A stretch of 64,000 bases of DNA from Buchnera aphidicola (Eriosoma lanigerum) (GTDB lineage: Bacteria > Pseudomonadota > Gammaproteobacteria > Enterobacterales > Enterobacteriaceae), in contig NZ_OZ060395.1 of NCBI RefSeq assembly GCF_964059125.1, positions 175,080-239,079 on the forward strand. Direction: 5' to 3'. The number at the start of each line of letters is the position of its first letter. Within the stretch, counting starts at the first letter, position 1. A program made the translations under genes and the position numbers. Under the pieces are notes generated by a model that saw only the letters and a program-made list of their open reading frames with translations, had not been told where the DNA came from and searched no databases. Shown here piece by piece: positions 20,591 through 42,719 of the stretch.

Positions 20591-21257
20591 ATGAAATACA
20601 TTAAGTTTTTAACTTGGAAAGATTTTTTTTTTACAACATAGATGTTGGATTAAATTATTAAATTTTATTGAGTATAGACGTATAAATCATGTCATTTATC
20701 CTACTAGAAAAGATATATTTCGTTCTTTTTCTTTGACTCCATTTCATATGATTAAAGTTGTAATATTAGGACAAGATCCTTATCATCAATTTAATCAAGC
20801 AAATGGTTTAGCTTTTTCTGTTAGAAAAGGAATTAAGATACCCCCTTCATTAAATAATATATATAAAGAATTAAAATATGATATTCCAAATATTAATATT
20901 ACTACACATGGATGTTTAGATAATTGGGCTAAACAAGGTGTTTTTTTATTAAATACTATTTTAACTGTAGAACATGGTAAACCGAAATCACATGTTAATA
21001 TAGGTTGGAAAAATTTTACTAGTAGGGTAATTAGTTATATTAATTATCATCATATAGGAATAATTTTTTTATTATGGGGGAAAGAATCCATAAATTTCAG
21101 AAATATTATAGATAGTAAGAAACATCATATTTTAACTGCCTCGCATCCATCACCATTTTCAGCTCATAGAGGATTTTTTGGATGCAGACATTTTTCAAAA
21201 TCTAATAAAATATTAATACAAAGTAATAAAGATCCAATTGATTGGTCAATAAATTGA
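20591..21257 (+). CDS. ung: Uracil-DNA glycosylase, frame broken at a T10 tract
   Basis: Ung removes uracil from DNA. Translation from ATG 20591, behind an AGGGAT Shine-Dalgarno, reads MKYIKFLTWKDFFFTT then a stop, matching the family's N-terminal LTW motif. From 20630 the next frame continues the family sequence as WIKLLNF, VIYPTRKDIF, then GQDPYH with the catalytic Asp and HPSPFSAHRGFFGC with the catalytic His, to the normal end. One T less in the 10-T tract (20623-20632) would restore one frame of 221 residues (E. coli 229). The TTG at 20733 would drop about 50 residues. It is either a recent frameshift, a sequencing error or a gene rescued by transcriptional slippage. Confidence 0.85.
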
Positions 21258-25370: not shown

Positions 25371-25991
25371 ATGAGTTATATTTTACCTGATTTAAAATAT
25401 GATTATGATTCTTTAGAACCATATTTTGATTCTATGACTATGCGTATTCATCATCAAAAACATCATCAAACTTATATTACTAATGCTAATACTATATTAA
25501 ATTCTATGAATTATCCAAATATTCAAGCTGAAATATTAATTACTAAATTAAATGAGATACCATTAATTAATCAATTAAATTTACGTAATAATTTAGGTGG
25601 GCACGTTAATCATTGTTTATTTTGGAATGGATTAAAAGTTGGAACAATATTACAAGGTTCATTATATCAAGCTTTAAAAAATAAATTTACTACTATTGAA
25701 AATTTTAAATCAAATTTTGAAAATATAGCATTATCTAGATTTGGATCAGGATGGGTCTGGTTAGTTTATGATAATCATGATTTAAAAATTATTTCTACAG
25801 CTAATCAAGATAATCCATTAATGGGTTATGATGTAGTAAAAGTATCTGGGTATCCTATTGTTGGTTTAGATGTGTGGGAGCATGCATATTATTTAAAATA
25901 TCAAAATAGACGTTTAGATTATGTAAAATCATTTTGGAATGTAGTAAATTGGGAAGAAGCATTAAAAAGGTATAATAATTGTATATGTTAA
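25371..25991 (+). CDS. sodA: Superoxide dismutase (Mn type)
   Basis: SodA converts superoxide to oxygen and hydrogen peroxide. It has 206 residues, the same as E. coli SodA. The metal ligands are in IHHQKHH (His27), GGHVNH (His near 81), and DVWEHAYY (Asp and His near 167-171). The [10 protein letters not shown] and FGSGWVWL motifs are typical for the Mn/Fe family, and overall similarity favours the Mn form. The stop is 51 nt before the proposed pth start on the same strand, so they may be co-transcribed. Confidence 0.96.
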
Positions 25992-26027: not shown

Positions 26028-26040
26028 TAAGGTGGTGATG
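26028..26040 (+). promoter_or_regulatory. Extended Shine-Dalgarno of pth
   Basis: TAAGGTGGTGATG differs from the complement of the 16S rRNA tail, TAAGGAGGTGATC, at only two of 13 positions. It is the strongest ribosome-binding site I found in the window. Its core AGGTGG (26030-26035) lies 7 nt before ATC 26043, the ideal spacing, and only 2 nt before the out-of-frame ATG at 26038. Confidence 0.75.
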
Positions 26041-26042
26041 GT

Positions 26043-26615
26043 ATCATAAAAATAATAGTAGGATTATCGAATCCCGATAATTTATATAAAAATACACGTC
26101 ATAATATTGGTTCACATTATGTATCTTTATTAGCTCAATATTATAATCAACGATTACAAGAAGAAAAAAAATTTTTAGGATATACTGCAAATATTTGTGT
26201 GAATCATAAAATAATACGATTATTAGTACCAAATGTATTTATGAATATTAATGGAGAATCTGTTTTTTTAATGTCATCATTTTATCATATTCCATTAACA
26301 AAAATTTTAATTGTACATGATGAATTAGATTTATCACCTGGTGTAATAAAAATAAAGTATGGATTTGGATCTGGAGGTCATAAAGGATTAAAAAATGTTA
26401 TGTCCTATTTTAAACAGTCAATTAGTTTTTTTCGCATTCGAATTGGAATTGGTAGACCTATTAAGTTAGAACAAATTTCTAATTATGTATTATCATATCC
26501 AAATCAACATGAATTAAATTTAATTAATAGAGTTATTTATCGGATGATTATTAATACTAATATATTTACAACAAAAATTAATGTAAAATTAATAAATAAA
26601 TTGTTAATTAATTAA
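26043..26615 (+). CDS. pth: Peptidyl-tRNA hydrolase, apparent AUC start
   Basis: Pth frees tRNA from peptidyl-tRNA dropped by ribosomes. The frame from 26043 reads IIKIIVGLSNPDN, matching family MTIKLIVGLANPG, so the catalytic Asn and His (TRHN) lie upstream of the first canonical in-frame start (GTG 26199). No ATG, GTG or TTG exists between the preceding in-frame TAA (26028-26030) and 26199. The ATG at 26038 is out of frame and hits TAA after three codons. TAAGGTGGTGATG (26028-26040) matches the full anti-Shine-Dalgarno complement at 11 of 13 bases and is 7 nt from ATC 26043. Asp in VHDELD is kept. The family's GGHNG is GGHKG here. Product is 190 residues. Confidence 0.85.
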   Translation: MIKIIVGLSNPDNLYKNTRHNIGSHYVSLLAQYYNQRLQEEKKFLGYTANICVNHKIIRLLVPNVFMNINGESVFLMSSFYHIPLTKILIVHDELDLSPGVIKIKYGFGSGGHKGLKNVMSYFKQSISFFRIRIGIGRPIKLEQISNYVLSYPNQHELNLINRVIYRMIINTNIFTTKINVKLINKLLIN

Positions 26616-26711: not shown

Positions 26712-27797
26712 ATGAGTTTTAAATGTGGAATTGTAGGTTTGCCAAATGTAGGGAAATCTACATTATTTAATGCATTAGCTTCTACAAAAATTTTAACTGC
26801 TAATTACCCTTTTTGTACTATTAAACCAAATATTAGTCATATTCCTGTATTAGATCCACGTTTAAATAGTATTGCAAGAATTGTTAATCCAAAAAAAATT
26901 ATTACTAATTTTATAGAATTAGTTGATATTGCTGGATTAGTCAAAGGTGCATCTAAAGGAGAAGGATTAGGTAATAAATTTTTAGAAAATATTAAAAATA
27001 CGGATGCTATAATACATGTTGTTCGTTGTTTTAATGATATTAATGTTACTCATATGTATGGTGTAGTAGATCCAATTAAAGATATTGAAATTATTAATCT
27101 TGAATTAATTTTATCAGATATTAGTATTTGTGAAAAAACTATATTTAGAATAGAAAAAAAAACTAAAATTAATTATAAAGAACTAAAAATTGAATTAAAT
27201 ATTTTATATCGTTGTTTAGATCATTTAAAAAAATTTCAAATGTTACGTTCTCTTAACATTACTTTAGAAGAAAAACAACGAATTGACAAGTTACAGTTAC
27301 TAACTTTTAAACCAATGATGTATGTAGCAAATATTGGTACAAAAAAAGAGGATAATTATTTATTGGAACAAGTTTTAAAATTAGCTGAAATAGAAAAATC
27401 AATAGTTATTTCAGTTTGCGCTCAAAGAGAAGCTAAAAAACTATATCATTCTAATATTAATACGAATTTTCAACCCATTGATGTAGATTGTAGTTCTACA
27501 TTATCAGATATAGTGTTTGCTGGATATAAATTATTAAATTTACAAACATTTTTTACTGTAGGAATTAAGGAAGTTCGTGCTTGGACTATATTAAAAGGTA
27601 GTACTGCTAAGGAAGCTGGAGGAGTAATTCATAGTGATTTTAACCGTGGTTTTATAAGAGTTAAAGTAATAAAATATAAAGATTTTATTCTTTATAAAGG
27701 TGAACTAGGAGTAAAATTAGCTGGAAAAATGTGTTCTGAAGGTAAAAAATATATTGTTCAGGATGGAGATATATTAAATTTTTTATTTCAAGTATAA
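26712..27797 (+). CDS. ychF: Redox-regulated ATPase / GTPase YchF (OLA1 family)
   Basis: YchF is an Obg-related ATPase that associates with ribosomes. It has 361 residues (E. coli 363). G1 is GLPNVGKST at 9-17 and G3 is DIAGLVKGASKGEGLGNKFL. The C-terminal TGS domain starts near 276 (FFTVGIKEVRAWT) and ends with the usual FLFQV-type tail. The family's G4 motif NxxE (NVNE in E. coli) reads NIGTKKED here, so the key Glu is displaced or lost. It follows pth as in E. coli and ends at a bidirectional terminator. Confidence 0.96.
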   Translation: MSFKCGIVGLPNVGKSTLFNALASTKILTANYPFCTIKPNISHIPVLDPRLNSIARIVNPKKIITNFIELVDIAGLVKGASKGEGLGNKFLENIKNTDAIIHVVRCFNDINVTHMYGVVDPIKDIEIINLELILSDISICEKTIFRIEKKTKINYKELKIELNILYRCLDHLKKFQMLRSLNITLEEKQRIDKLQLLTFKPMMYVANIGTKKEDNYLLEQVLKLAEIEKSIVISVCAQREAKKLYHSNINTNFQPIDVDCSSTLSDIVFAGYKLLNLQTFFTVGIKEVRAWTILKGSTAKEAGGVIHSDFNRGFIRVKVIKYKDFILYKGELGVKLAGKMCSEGKKYIVQDGDILNFLFQV

Positions 27798-36170: not shown

Positions 36171-36618
36171 GATTAGTTCCGAGTAATTATGTTTTATTAA
36201 TATGAAAAGTATTTATTATAATTAATAAATTTATTTTTTTTTATATATAAAAATTTATTAATTTTTTTAATTAATATTAATATATTGAGCAATAACATAC
36301 ATTATACTAAATAATAAGTTAATTAAAATATAGCTTATTTTATTTTCATAGTTATTTTTTATTTTGATAAAATACATAAATAGGGTTTTTTATGTATGAT
36401 ATAAATCATAACATTCATTATATATTGTATAATTTAAATTATTTTGAATAATATTAGGAATAAAAATATTGTATATAATAATAAATAATTATTAAATATT
36501 ATGAGGATAGAAATAATAAGATTTTTTTTTTGATATTTTATTTGTATATGAATATAAAGTTTAATTTTTTTTACAACTAATTTAATTAAATATAGTAATT
36601 ACGTTGTTTGTTTTTATG
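36171..36618. other. dksA / truA divergent spacer
   Basis: These 448 AT-rich bases lie between divergent genes. A 9-bp inverted repeat ATACATAAA/TTTATGTAT (36372-36380 with 36389-36397) has the only GGG run here in its loop. Its role is unknown. No gene remnant is visible. Confidence 0.5.
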
Positions 36619-37400
36619 GATACGTTGATGATTGTAAATAATAAAATAATAAAATTTGCGTTATGTGTGGAATATAATGGTAATAGCTATCATGGGTGGC
36701 AAAAACAAAAAAATAAAATTAGTATACAAGAAGAATTAGAAAAAGCGATATCTTTAGTTGCTAATCATCAGATTATTGTAGTTTGTGCAGGAAGAACTGA
36801 TTCTGGAGTACATAGTATAGGTCAAATAGTTCATTTTGAGACAGTTTCTATAAGAAAAGATATTTCTTGGTTATTAGGAGTAAATTCATATTTACCAGTT
36901 GATATTGTTGTTCGTTGGATTAAACAAGTTCCTTTATTTTTTCATGCTCGATATAGCGCTTTATCTCGTGTATATAGATATATAATTTATAATTATTCTT
37001 GTAGATCGGCAATATTTATGCATTCTATTTGTCATATTGTTCATAATTTAGATGTAAAAAATATGTATTTAGGAGGACAATACTTATTGGGAGAACATGA
37101 TTTTAGTGCTTTTCGAGCTAAAGGATGTCAGTCAAATACTTCGTTTCGTAATATAAAAAAAATAAATATTATTAAAAAAAATTCTATAATTATTATAGAT
37201 ATTGAAGCTAATTCTTTTTTATATCATATGGTTCGTAATATTGTTGGTACATTAATTGAAATTGGATTAAAAAAAAAAGTGTAGCTTGGATGAAAACTGT
37301 TTTAGAAAGTAAAGATAGAAAATTATGTGGACATACTGCTTCAGCAAAAGGATTGTATTTAATATATGTTCAATATCCATCTTATTTTAATCTTAATTAA
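36619..37400 (+). CDS. truA: tRNA pseudouridine(38-40) synthase, frame broken at an A10 tract
   Basis: TruA makes pseudouridine at tRNA positions 38-40. The first frame covers the catalytic [10 protein letters not shown] and RYRYIIYN and runs to [17 protein letters not shown], then stops at 37284. The stop follows a run of ten A (37269-37278). One extra A would continue as [14 protein letters not shown], then [14 protein letters not shown] to TAA 37400, matching the family C-terminus. The joined product would have 260 residues (E. coli 270). The start is ATG 36619 or ATG 36631 (a GGA lies 7 nt before the latter). As with ung, rescue by slippage, recent decay or a read error are all possible. 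Confidence 0.85.
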
Positions 37401-37636
37401 AAAAATGATTTATTTTTATTTAAAAAAATTATTTATTTTTATAGATCTCGTTAATATTTATAGTAATAATAATTACTGAAAATATATTTTTTTATGATTG
37501 AAAAATTACTTGTTTAAAATGATATTTAGATATTAAATATTATAATTTCTTTTGTTTATTTTATTATGATAGTTATATTCGTAATTAATATAATATTTTT
37601 AAAAATTAACTTAATGGCATATAGTAAGGTATGATA

Positions 37637-38725
37637 ATGAATAATTATAAAATTGCAGTTTTATCAGGAGATGGTATTGGTCCTGAAATTATTCGTGAAG
37701 GATATAAAATTTTAGAGGTAGTTAAAAAAAAATATTCTTTAAATTTAATTTTAAAGGAATATGATGTTGGGGGAAAAGCTATTGATAAATATGGAATTGC
37801 GTTACCAGAGGAAACTTTAATTGGATGTAAAAATTCTCATGCAATTCTTTTTGGAGCAGTAGGTGGACCAAAATGGCATGACCTTCCTACTGAAGAACAA
37901 CCAGAAAGAGCTGCTTTATTACCATTACGAAAATTTTTTAATTTATTTTCTAATTTACGTCCAGCTAAATTACATAAAGATCTTGTTCATTTATCACCTC
38001 TTCGTTCTGAAATTGCATCAAAAGGTTTCGATATTCTTTGTATTCGAGAATTAACATCAGGTGTTTATTATGGAAGACCAAAAGGAAGAACAAAAAAAAA
38101 TGGACAAGAATTTGCGTTTGATACAGCAGTTTACTATAATTATGAGATAGAACGAATTGCAAGAATAGCTTTCAAATTAGCGAGAACTAGAAAAAAGAGC
38201 ATTGTTTCTATTGATAAAGCCAATGTTTTAGAAACATCCATTTTGTGGAGAGAAGTTGTTAATAAAGTTTCGAAAGAATATTCTGATGTTAATGTAAAAC
38301 ATTTATATATAGATAATGCATGTATGCAAATTATAAAAAACCCACAGGATTTTGATATAATTTTATCTTCTAATTTATTTGGAGATATTTTATCTGATGA
38401 ATGTGCAATGTTAACTGGATCAATAGGTATGTTACCTTCAGCTAGTTTAAATAATATGCAATTTGGTTTATACGAACCAGCCGGAGGTTCTGCTCCTGAT
38501 ATAGCTGGGAAAAATATTGCTAATCCAATTGCTTTAATTTTATCGTTATCTATGTTATTTAAATATAGTTTACAACTATATAATATTGCTGAAGATATAG
38601 AATGGTCTGTTAATGAAGTATTAAAAAATGGTTATAGAACTTTTGATATTACTAATCAAAATAACTATATTAGTACTCAAGAAATGGGTAATAAGATTGC
38701 TTTTTATTTACAAAACAAGGAGTAG
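37637..38725 (+). CDS. leuB: 3-isopropylmalate dehydrogenase
   Basis: LeuB oxidises 3-isopropylmalate in leucine synthesis, using NAD. The product has 362 residues from ATG 37637, chosen because AAGG is 7 nt upstream; ATG 37631 almost touches it. Motifs are [25 protein letters not shown], the Mg/NAD site [11 protein letters not shown] and [16 protein letters not shown]. It is the first gene of leuB-leuC-leuD and ends 2 nt before leuC. In E. coli leuA comes first; here leuA lies 0.4 kb downstream of leuD. In many Buchnera these genes are on a plasmid. Confidence 0.97.
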
Positions 38726-38727
38726 TT

Positions 38728-40128
38728 ATGGGTAGAACTTTATACCAAAAGTTATATGATCAACATATTGTATATCAATCAGAAAATGAATCACCTGTAT
38801 TATATATTGACCTACATTTAATTCATGAAGTTACATCTCCTCAAGCTTTTTCTTCATTACGAAAGAATAATAGAATTGTTAGACAATCGAAAAAAACTTT
38901 TGCTACTATGGATCATAATGTTTCTACTATTAGTGGAGAAATTCAGGCTTCTGGTGTTAAAGCACAACATCAAATGGAAACTTTAATTAAAAATTGTATT
39001 GATTTTAATATAACATTATATGATTTATATAGTTCTCGTCAAGGAATAGTACATGTTATTGGACCAGAACAAGGTTTAACATTACCAGGTATGACAATTG
39101 TTTGTGGGGATTCTCATACTTCTACTCATGGTGCATTTGGTGCATTAGCTTTTGGAATAGGTACCTCTGAAGTAGAACATGTATTAGCAACGCAAACGTT
39201 AAAACAAAATCGTTCTAAGAATATGAAAATACAATTAGAAGGAATTGTTGGTAAAGGAATCACGTCTAAAGATATAGTATTAAGTATTATAGGGAAACTT
39301 GGAATTTCTATAGGAACAGGGTATGTAATAGAATTTACAGGAAGCGTAGTTAATAATTTTACTATGGAAGAAAGAATGACTTTATGTAATATGGCAATTG
39401 AAATGGGTGCTAAATCGGCAATTATTTCACCAGATCAAATTACATATGATTATTTACAGAATAAAAATTTTTCTCCTAAGAATAAAAATTGGGATCAAGC
39501 AGTTGACTTTTGGAATACTTTAAAATCGGATTCTGATGCATCTTTTGATAAATCGTTTCTAATAGATATCACTGATGTAGAACCTCAAGTTACTTGGGGG
39601 ACGAATCCAGGACAAGTTTGTTCTATTACTCAAAGAGTACCTATGTTACATACTTTTAAAAATTGTGTTGAAAGAGAATCAGCAAAATATGCTATGTCTT
39701 ATATGAAACTCAAAGTTGGTACTAAATTAACTGATATTACTATTGATAAAGTATTTATAGGATCTTGTACTAATTCTAGAATAGAAGACTTACGTTTAGC
39801 TGCTTCAATAATAAAGAATCATAAAGTTGCACCTGGTGTTACTGCTCTTGTAGTTCCTGGATCAAAACAAGTAAAAAAACAAGCTGAGAATGAAGGATTG
39901 GATAAAATCTTTATTAATTCTGGTTTTGAATGGAGATTACCTGGATGCTCAATGTGTTTAGGAATGAACAATGATAGATTAGAAGTAGGTCAACGATGTG
40001 CTTCAACAAGTAATAGGAATTTTGAAGGTCGTCAAGGTAGAGGTGGTTTGACTCATTTAGTAAGTCCATCTATGGCAGCAGCTGCTGCTATTTTTGGAAA
40101 GTTTGTTGATGTTAGACAATTAATGTAA
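38728..40128 (+). CDS. leuC: 3-isopropylmalate dehydratase, large subunit
   Basis: LeuC with LeuD isomerises 2- to 3-isopropylmalate using a 4Fe-4S cluster. It has 466 residues, the same as E. coli. The cluster cysteines are in GSCTNSR (near 347) and [10 protein letters not shown] (near 407 and 410). [20 protein letters not shown] is the aconitase-family signature. An AAGGAG Shine-Dalgarno lies inside the end of leuB, showing coupled translation. leuD follows after 19 nt. Confidence 0.97.
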
Positions 40129-40147
40129 AGAGATAATAATTAATGTT

Positions 40148-40753
40148 ATGAATAAATTTAAACAACATTCTGGTATTATTGCACCTTTAAATATTTCTAA
40201 TATTGATACAGATTCCATTATTCCTAAACAATTTTTACAGCATGTTACAAGGGAAGGATTTGGTCAATATTTATTTCATGATTGGAGATTTTTAGATTCT
40301 CAAAGAAAGAAAGAAAATTATGATTTTATATTAAATAAAGAATATTATAGGAATTCTAGTATTTTATTAGCAAGAAATAATTTTGGATGTGGATCTTCTA
40401 GAGAACATGCAGTTTGGGCACTGATGGATTATGGATTTAAAGTTATTATAGCAGTGAGTTTTGCAGATATATTTTATAATAATAGTTTTAATAATCATTT
40501 GTTATTAATAACGTTAACAGAACAAGAAATTGATAATATATTTTCAGTAGTACATGAAAATTTAGGAATAACATGTTATGTCAGTTTAAAATATAACAAA
40601 GTTATAATTAATAATAAAGAATATTTTTTTTCTATTCCTTGTTTTCATCGTTTTTGTTTATTAAATGGATTAGATAGTATTGATTTAACTATGAATAATC
40701 AAGATTTAATAAAAAATTATGAAAAAAATATACCTAATTTTTTTATTCGTTAA
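40148..40753 (+). CDS. leuD: 3-isopropylmalate dehydratase, small subunit
   Basis: LeuD is the swivel-domain partner of LeuC. It has 201 residues, as in E. coli. It shows NIDTDSIIPKQFL near the N-terminus and the substrate-binding NFGCGSSREHAVWAL. It is the last gene of the leuBCD block and is followed by a hairpin (40863-40890) that could terminate it. An out-of-frame ATG at 40143 is ignored. Confidence 0.96.
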   Translation: MNKFKQHSGIIAPLNISNIDTDSIIPKQFLQHVTREGFGQYLFHDWRFLDSQRKKENYDFILNKEYYRNSSILLARNNFGCGSSREHAVWALMDYGFKVIIAVSFADIFYNNSFNNHLLLITLTEQEIDNIFSVVHENLGITCYVSLKYNKVIINNKEYFFSIPCFHRFCLLNGLDSIDLTMNNQDLIKNYEKNIPNFFIR

Positions 40754-40862
40754 TAATAAAATAATTATTTAAAAAGTAATATATATATTATTGAAATTTT
40801 ATTATATTTATTTAATTATAAAATAATTTTATTCAGTATAATTGAATTAAATATTAAAAATG

Positions 40863-40890
40863 AATAGTTATATAAAATGATATAACTATT
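40863..40890 (+). terminator. Putative leuBCD terminator hairpin
   Basis: AATAGTTATAT (40863-40873) pairs with ATATAACTATT (40880-40890), an 11-bp stem with a 6-nt loop. TTTATAAAATTT follows. It lies about 110 nt after the leuD stop. The stem is weak (one G-C pair), so confidence is moderate. Copies of AGTTATAT recur just downstream. Confidence 0.45.
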
Positions 40891-41013
40891 TTATAAAATT
40901 TATATAGTTATATACTATAACTGTATTTTGATATTAAATATATATTTAATATTAAATTTATTTATATAAATATAATTATATTTTCAATTAATTAATTATT
41001 TAAATATTTGAAT

Positions 41014-41043
41014 AGAGATTCAGTTTTTATTATCTGAATCTCT
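41014..41043 (+). repeat. 10-bp hairpin upstream of leuA
   Basis: AGAGATTCAG (41014-41023) pairs with CTGAATCTCT (41034-41043) across a 10-nt loop. Four G-C pairs make it one of the more stable stems in the intergenic DNA. It is about 130 nt before the leuA ATG. It could be a terminator, a leader structure or an operator. I see no Leu-rich leader peptide with it. Confidence 0.55.
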
Positions 41044-41171
41044 GTATCCTTTCATAATATCTTTTTATATGAATATAAATATTCGTGATTGAGTAATTTA
41101 ATTTTTATTTTATAAAAATTATATATTAATGTTGTATTTCATAAATTTATAAAATTAAAGTAGGTATATAT

Positions 41172-42719
41172 ATGAAAGAAAGAATTATAATTTTTGATAC
41201 AACGTTAAGAGACGGTGAACAAGCATTACAATCAAGTTTAACTGTTAAAGAAAAATTAAAAATAGCATTATCATTAGAAAAGATGGGTGTTGATGTGATA
41301 GAAGCTGGTTTTCCAATTTCATCACCTGGTGACTATGAATCTGTAAAATCAATTTCTAGTGTTATTAAATCTAGTCGTGTATGTAGTTTATCTCGTTGTC
41401 TAGATCAAGATATTGATATTGCTGCTGAAGCTATGTCTACAGCTGAAAAGTTTAGAATTCATCTTTTTTTAGGTACTTCTAAATTGCATGTGGAATCAAA
41501 GTTAAGAAAAAATTTTAAAGAAATTATGAATATGGCTGTGAAATCTATTAAGAGAGCTACTCAATATACAGATGATATTGAATTTTCTTGCGAGGATGCT
41601 GGTCGTACTTCTATGGATCATCTTTGTTTGATTGTAGAACAAGTGATAAAAGCAGGAGCTACTACTATAAATATACCAGATACCGTTGGTTATACTGTTC
41701 CTCAAGAATTTGGAAATATTATTCATTTGTTATTTAATAAAGTTCCTAATATTGATTTAGCAGTAATTTCTGTACATTGTCATAATGATTTAGGAATGGC
41801 TGTAGGAAATTCTATTAGTGCTATTCAGTCAGGAGCTAGACAGATTGAAGGTACAATAAATGGTATAGGAGAAAGAGCAGGTAATACTGCTTTAGAAGAA
41901 GTTGTTATGACTATAGAAACAAGAAAAGATTTGTTGAAAGTATTTACAAACGTTAATTTAAAAGAAATTTATTCTACTAGTAGAATAGTTAGTAAAATTT
42001 GTCGTATGGATATTGCTTCAAACAAAGCTATTGTTGGTAATAATGCTTTTGCTCATTCTTCTGGAATTCATCAAGATGGTATATTAAAAAATAGAAAAAA
42101 TTATGAAATTATTTCTCCAGAAAGTATAGGTTTAAAAAAAGTACCTTTTAATTTAACTTCTCGATCTGGAAGAGCTGCTGTGAAACATAGAATGAATGAA
42201 ATGGGTTACAAAGAACATGAATACGATATTAACAAATTATATGATGCATTTTTACATTTAGCTGATAAACAAGGAAAAATATTTGATTATGAATTAGAAA
42301 AATTAGCTTTTTGTGATGATCAATATAAAAATTTAGATATTTTTTTTCTTAAAAGTTTGCATATTCAATCTGATATAAACGGTAGTTATACGGCTATAAT
42401 TATTGTACTATGTGATAGTAAAGAAATAAAAAAATCTGCAAATTCGTGTTATGATCCTATAGATGCAGTATATCAAGCATTACAAAAAATTGTGCAATAT
42501 ACTTTTTCAGTAAAAAAATTTTATTTATCTTCGACAGGATTAGGTAAAGCTCTTATTTCTCAAGTTGATATTATAGTAGATTATAATGGTCGTTTTTTTC
42601 AAGGACAGGGTACTTCTAGAGATTTATTGATTGCGTCTGCTAATGCTTTTATTAGTATATTTAATTCTATATGGTGTTCTAATCAAGTAATAAATAAATT
42701 AAAAATATTAAAAAAATAA
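41172..42719 (+). CDS. leuA: 2-isopropylmalate synthase
   Basis: LeuA condenses 2-ketoisovalerate and acetyl-CoA, the committed step to leucine. It has 515 residues (E. coli 523). [12 protein letters not shown] is at 9-20, the metal-binding HCHND has His202 and His204, and [17 protein letters not shown] is present. The C-terminal regulatory domain (about 390-515) is kept, with STGLGKA and ANAFISIFN, so leucine feedback may persist. It is separated from leuBCD and has its own spacer and a 3' hairpin, so it is probably a separate transcript. Confidence 0.97.

Follow-up and report, generated by a model that had tools for sequence, protein, structure and literature searches.

The window analysed here is a 64,000-nucleotide stretch of the Buchnera aphidicola (Eriosoma lanigerum) chromosome, from a genome (G000) of 637,734 bases in 3 contigs. 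It carries pth, the gene for peptidyl-tRNA hydrolase (Pth1), between a superoxide dismutase gene and ychF. Several other genes, hisB, tilS, truA, fabD, ung, rsmI, trxB and the leu genes, were recognised from their sequences and are presumably correctly named. By the same recognition, leuB, C, D and A lie in that order on the chromosome (window 37631-42719), and an 8.4-kb plasmid contig carries trpEG-like sequence. The features that bear on the start of pth are these, in window coordinates.

25371-25991, + strand: Fe/Mn superoxide dismutase, upstream neighbour of pth
26028-26030, + strand: in-frame TAA ahead of pth; the Pth frame cannot start upstream of it
26028-26040, + strand: extended Shine-Dalgarno TAAGGTGGTGATG, 11 of 13 against the complement of the genome's 16S 3′ end
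26032-26049, + strand: GTG GTG ATG GTA TCA TAA, off-frame starts; 3-codon mini-ORF from ATG 26038, with its UAA stop at 26047-26049
26043-26045, + strand: ATC, probably the pth start codon, at aligned spacing 7
26046-26048, + strand: ATA, candidate alternative pth start at aligned spacing 10, overlapping the mini-ORF TAA
26043-26615, + strand: pth, for peptidyl-tRNA hydrolase (Pth1); 190 codons and a stop, counted from the ATC
26052-26054, + strand: ATA, where 13 of 20 other Buchnera have an in-frame ATG (IKMIVGL)
26199-26201, + strand: GTG, first canonical start codon of the Pth frame
26712-27797, + strand: ychF, ATG start, downstream neighbour of pth (control gene)

Among the open reading frames of the window, the Pth frame runs from the TAA at 26028-26030 to the stop at 26613-26615 and opens with the codons GGT GGT GAT GGT ATC(26043) ATA AAA ATA ATA GTA GGA TTA. 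The first-pass annotation had reported that it offers no ATG, GTG or TTG before codon 53, and that the catalytic Asn and His precede that codon. Both statements hold. The first in-frame canonical codon after the TAA is GTG 26199, codon 53 counted from ATC 26043, and the positions of Asn10 and His20 (E. coli numbers) fall before it.

The frame matches PF01195 with an E value of 2.3e-43 over positions 1-172 of the 183 in the profile, beginning at the first, and residue 2 of the query aligns with residue 2 of chain 2pth_A; mature E. coli Pth lacks its Met. The catalytic residues, Asn10, His20, Asn68 and Asp93 in E. coli numbering, are represented by N14, H24, N72 and D97 of the aligned frame, all invariant in 23 aligned sequences. 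At the place of Asn114, a presumed substrate-binding residue of the E. coli enzyme, residue 118 of frame 26031-26612 is Lys, as in five other alignment rows, three of them named Buchnera. Because most relatives differ only at this place, the substitution is treated as variation within the family that would not exclude the protein from Pth1. The nearest named database proteins, the genome's own entry aside, are from Buchnera, at 65% for one and 62% for the other, that of Eriosoma harunire. Profile searches of the genome returned a single match to PF01195 and none to PF01981, so that no second Pth of either family was found.

Just ahead of the ATC lies TAAGGTGGTGATG. The 16S rRNA of this genome ends in GGATCACCTCCTTA, and from the complement of that tail, TAAGGAGGTGATC, the element differs at 2 positions. 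The first-pass count of 11 matches in 13 is thus confirmed against the genome's own rRNA, the tail of which is canonical, ruling out an altered 16S tail. The distance of 7 nt then given between this element and the ATC applies when counted from the end of AGGTGG at 26035 and not to the whole 13-mer, which ends 2 nt before ATC 26043. The element is the only match of its kind in the window. Shuffled windows yielded a mean of 0.60 such matches per whole window and at least one in 47 of 100 shuffles, so a single occurrence somewhere in the window is ordinary, whereas one within the 13 positions before a given gene has a chance expectation of about 6e-5, by arithmetic from the same shuffles.

Pairing of the leader with the 16S tail has a predicted energy of -15.1 kcal/mol when the bases before the ATC are considered, and of -11.0 when those before ATG 26038 are. 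Among 232 comparison ORFs of the same genome the best value was -10.4 and the median -4.0, and pth ranks first; these are ORFs with a canonical start near the start of a G001 ORF, derived from 304 query ORFs of that genome, and include a few non-genes and one ORF inside the 16S gene. In the pth leaders of 20 other Buchnera, duplex energies ranged from -7.3 to -0.3. By count of matches the pth element is tied by one of the 232 ORFs, which has an ATG start. An aligned spacing of 7, that of the ATC, is the commonest in the genome, being found in 21 of the 145 ORFs that have a run of at least 4 (spacing 5 is found in 20), and spacings of 2 or less are rare (4 of 145). A strong Shine-Dalgarno at this place would look like the expected compensation for a poor start codon, and we infer that it was selected as such. 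Other signals in the leader were sought as well. A regulatory RNA fold was ruled out (z -0.71, with 44 of 200 shuffles equally good), the single Rfam match was weak (E 0.2), fell short of the gathering score and lay on the opposite strand inside pth, and promoter-like sites showed no excess, with 11 against 11.6 in shuffles.

To place the start in its lineage, pth was compared in 20 other Buchnera genomes (genus labels g1, g90, g143, g108 and g61, with G062 included), which had been chosen as having Pth matches. Exact Pth matches link G001, G211, G406, G091, G144, G294 and G312, of g1, g90, g143 and g108, to named Buchnera proteins; for g61, the nearest named relatives of the G195 Pth are all from gall-aphid Buchnera, at 60-69%. 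In all 20 genomes the pth start lies upstream of the ATC slot, with TTG in 15 and ATG in 5, at a distance of two codons in 17 and of four codons in 3. None of the 20 has Met at the slot itself, nor an AUC start there. In 10 of the 128 more distant loci, belonging to 9 genomes, pth does start at the slot. At least one Buchnera, G048, is counted among these 128 'others'; it begins with TTG at the place used by the Buchnera above. The first-pass annotation had proposed that the start Met at 26043 mutated to Ile, and had suggested looking in sister strains for an ATG ancestor. That history finds no support in these alignments, in which none of the 20 Buchnera has Met at the slot. Its other proposal, AUC initiation compensated by the leader, remains plausible, with the pairing first among 232 ORFs and the spacing the commonest in the genome. 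The pairing of AUN starts with extended Shine-Dalgarno sequences is, besides, well established (PMC13009471).

The comparison also indicates that pth is a habitually weak starter. A start was assigned in 148 loci, one to each by a rule based on position; a few assignments are doubtful, and some loci are near duplicates. A codon other than ATG serves as the pth start in 15 of 20 Buchnera and in 74 of the 128 others. For ychF, examined at these loci too, ATG accounts for 117 of 119 starts. Weak initiation thus appears normal for pth, and because its starts are habitually weak, a further weakening may be tolerable. The contrast between a weakly started pth and its ATG-started neighbour is a separate point, about dosage.

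Although the frame lacks a canonical start, canonical codons are close by. GTG 26032, GTG 26035 and ATG 26038 sit within the Shine-Dalgarno, one nucleotide off the Pth frame. The real start in two same-genus relatives lies at aligned spacings of 1 (TTG) and 0 (ATG), and ATG 26038, at spacing 2, looks like its positional homologue, in a leader that has diverged too far from that of G001 for confident base-by-base alignment. The most economical history, as we infer it, is that the old pth start was displaced out of frame; the presence of the off-frame ATG leads us to favour such a displacement over a point mutation of the start codon.

The same nucleotides would arise if there were no displacement in the organism at all. 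A sequencing or assembly error that miscounted the bases from the ATG to ATAAAA would leave the true pth start at ATG 26038, in the place of the relatives' TTG. This ATG is one nucleotide from the conserved slot and near the short spacing of G001 and G002; the frequency of a start triplet at a given position is 0.045 in this genome, or, by arithmetic, about 0.09 for a shift in either direction. The assembly also contains other broken frames. We compared 364 kb of this genome, 58% of the chromosome, with 375 kb of G001. Of the 304 G001 ORFs, 283 had a match; 7 of these were passed over and 276 fell within the limits set. For a gene to be flagged in this census of starts, its aligned beginning had to be more than 12 codons from any canonical start, so that an AUN codon closely before an ATG escapes it. 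Inspection removed g1_031 and g1_123, which are small, un-gene-like ORFs, and g1_141 and g1_287, which have a canonical start further on. Under stricter limits, 18 of the 20 flags in this genome, those other than pth and hisB, were dropped, and in nearly all of them a canonical start follows after a few codons; that census also flags g1_091 and g1_201, outside the inspected set.

Six genes remained after inspection with a broken frame or without an in-frame start: ung, truA, tilS, fabD, hisB and pth. In ung (window 20592-21257) the N-terminal part from ATG 20592 is off-frame against the rest, with the break at a T10 run (20623-20632), and truA (window 36604-37394) is broken at an A10 run (37269-37278). 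The frames of tilS and fabD break at a run of 11 and at an A10, respectively, at about 112197 and 375602 of contig C1. In G001, five inspected breaks, in other genes, all fall at runs of 10-12; runs of 10 or more number 104 in the sample of this genome and 92 in that of G001. An AUN start considered for fabD was dropped when an ATG was found one codon before it. Each of the four broken genes is disrupted at a run of 10-11 A or T. In the pth leader, by contrast, no run reaches 6, and the longest is A5 at 26048-26052. A start at ATG would, moreover, not call for the strongest Shine-Dalgarno of all those compared, and would itself lie under the full duplex. Finally, hisB has no canonical start despite having no frame break. 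The extended Shine-Dalgarno, the missing long run and the independent case of hisB argue against an assembly error, which we consider unlikely while giving it some weight; an error of one base would remove the pth case.

The hisB gene (locus L172, 7407-8489; contig C1, 102486) has ATT exactly where G001 has ATG, and no canonical in-frame start was found near this ATT. Canonical hisB starts occur in 18 of 18 other Buchnera loci, from a search in which 19 of 21 genomes, this one included, gave a match. Its Shine-Dalgarno is ordinary (-6.0), and compensation by the leader is therefore not general. The infC gene likewise lacks a canonical start: by homology to E. coli infC it appears to begin with ATT, as does that of G001, behind GGAGG with an energy of -10.7. 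Since infC appears to be started with ATT and hisB has ATT where its sister has ATG, AUN starts are plausible in this genome. The predicted IF3 could be aligned from end to end with a solved structure of the factor (8jsg_A), which ruled out a damaged IF3; IF3 looks normal and intact.

A further question is whether ribosomes reach the Pth frame by way of the displaced ATG. The stretch ATG GTA TCA TAA (26038-26049) has the layout of a minigene, a start, a few codons and a stop behind a Shine-Dalgarno. If it were translated, ribosomes might then restart at AUA 26046 or a neighbouring AUN. The mini-ORF has the strongest Shine-Dalgarno of the sample (-11.0 from the bases before its ATG alone), and its stop overlaps the candidate restart codon as AUAA. 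Regulation by a leader minigene has been documented and coupling proposed, with an overlapping stop and start said to be best (PMC8708949). Against this, inspection of the relatives' leaders did not reveal this mini-ORF, the restart codon would still be an AUN, and ATG 26038 is at the unfavourable spacing of 2, inside the full duplex. We regard reinitiation as quite improbable; the mini-ORF might be a coupling device or an idle remnant.

Mini-ORFs of this type are known to shed peptidyl-tRNA, which is the substrate of Pth. Because a UAA-ended mini-ORF of this kind, with a strong Shine-Dalgarno, sits on the pth start, the overlap could be functional, with the mini-ORF feeding Pth activity or the level of IF3 back on translation of pth from AUC or AUA; we consider such feedback very improbable. 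Two forms of slippage were also examined at this site. Transcript slippage was ruled out by the reasoning that the A5 run starts within the mini-ORF stop, so that a change in its length keeps that stop, and minus-one ribosomal slippage at GTA TCA TAA was dropped when codon inspection revealed no site for re-pairing.

It is also conceivable that pth has recently lost its start and is decaying, with little or no expression. Reduced genomes can lack the gene: at E<=1e-30, Pth was not found in 10 of 392 genomes of the family, among them all five sampled genomes of genus g76, which are of about 400 kb. The gene appears to be in two pieces or interrupted by stops in G017 and G020 (about 1 Mb and 0.6 Mb). 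At the same threshold, 2 of 4 genomes of genus g94, of about 200 kb, gave no Pth match, and with g76 they make natural loss of pth possible. On the branch leading to this genome Pth has accumulated 18 changes, compared with 9 on that of the sister; among 41 genes, with pooled changes of 1039:929, only one has a higher ratio. Such a faster branch would also fit relaxed constraint. The state of the gene itself argues against decay. All 190 codons are open, the catalytic positions are invariant in the 23 sequences, and at positions where 10 or all 11 relatives agree, this Pth departs 5 times and that of G001 6 times. The identity of 65% to G001 is ordinary, 83 of 274 ORFs being lower. An open pth frame is present in the 20 other Buchnera, a set chosen by matching that says little on unsampled losses. 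Decay would also leave the extended Shine-Dalgarno unexplained, and we think it improbable.

Taken together, these observations describe a pth gene with no canonical start in its frame, behind a predicted strong Shine-Dalgarno that is missing from the compared relatives, which start upstream. The account that we favour, with moderate confidence, is that pth, habitually a weak starter, was deprived of its in-frame start and is now translated from AUC 26043 (or AUA 26046) with the help of the extended Shine-Dalgarno. The GTG, GTG and ATG at 26032-26040 would mark the neighbourhood of the lineage's usual weak TTG start, now one nucleotide off register. The unusually long duplex would dock the 30S subunit, and fMet-tRNA would initiate most likely at AUC 26043, with AUA 26046 as second choice. 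Either assignment of the initiation codon is read from sequence. The product would begin fMet-Ile-Lys-Ile-Ile-Val-Gly-Leu and, judging from the alignment with 2pth_A, be virtually as long as mature E. coli Pth. Non-canonical starts are repressed by IF3 (PMC5472188), and since the factor looks intact here, translation of pth would be expected to be IF3-sensitive. The same premise weighs on the other side, because a normal IF3 should discriminate against an AUC at pth, and counter-evidence also comes from conservation, the AUC start being shared by 0 of 20 relatives.

If this account is correct, a very small genome, exposed to drift and AT mutation, has exchanged a canonical start for AUC and a lengthened Shine-Dalgarno, placing the gene of a usually essential enzyme on AUC and a second gene, hisB, on AUU. 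Start codons could then be lost without loss of the gene, and the supply of Pth would be tied to start-codon discrimination by IF3. Gene callers would truncate genes of this kind; canonical starts alone give 138 of the 190 codons of pth.

The elements of this account have precedents. Among the open-licence papers that literature searches listed, none concerned an AUN start for Buchnera pth or hisB, but occasional ATT starts in curated Buchnera genes are already in print: in the Buchnera of Myzus persicae, curated genes were extended to GTG, TTG and occasionally ATT starts (PMC3890641). There, as here, AUN starts were deduced by comparison with relatives; the passage names no gene, whereas the present case concerns pth, an ATC and an extended Shine-Dalgarno. 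The same source describes poly(A) indels that split gene models (PMC3890641). Transcript slippage is known in insect endosymbionts at long A/T runs, such as those at which ung, truA, tilS and fabD are broken here, and the genes concerned resemble pth in having a frame problem and perhaps still being expressed (PMC5009743). Slippage of the poly(A) type is inapplicable to pth, because its leader has no long A or T run. The axe-txe leader minigene, like that of pth, is a very short ORF before the start of a gene; it was tested (PMC8708949), whereas the pth mini-ORF is a sequence pattern that is unconserved.

In lambda cI, a one-nucleotide deletion in codon 2 was followed by rescue of function, apparently from a non-AUG start at the same ribosome site (PMC6397469). 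The parallel with pth is a start region one nucleotide off, with a nearby in-frame non-AUG codon apparently used; the cI case is a laboratory mutant with an ACA start, and the passages describing it mention no extended Shine-Dalgarno. The infC gene of E. coli starts with ATT and is known for autoregulation (PMC5472188). Genes of the infC type, with AUU, AUC or AUA starts, resemble pth in having an AUN behind a strong Shine-Dalgarno, and this genome apparently has an ATT-started infC of its own; that ATT is common to this genome and G001, whereas the predicted AUC of pth was seen in one genome. The closest likeness in arrangement is with Staphylococcus aureus, in which infC, cvfC1, ccpN and citZ have AUA or AUU starts at sites said to be marked by extended Shine-Dalgarno motifs, and reporters of three of these genes reached about 10%, and up to 30%, of the level from AUG (PMC13009471). 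Ribosome profiling located those starts, a part of which are conserved, whereas the AUC of pth is predicted from sequence and is unconserved; the combination of a non-canonical AUN with an extended Shine-Dalgarno is common to both. The case of pth is an uncommon instance of a known trick and no new kind of system.
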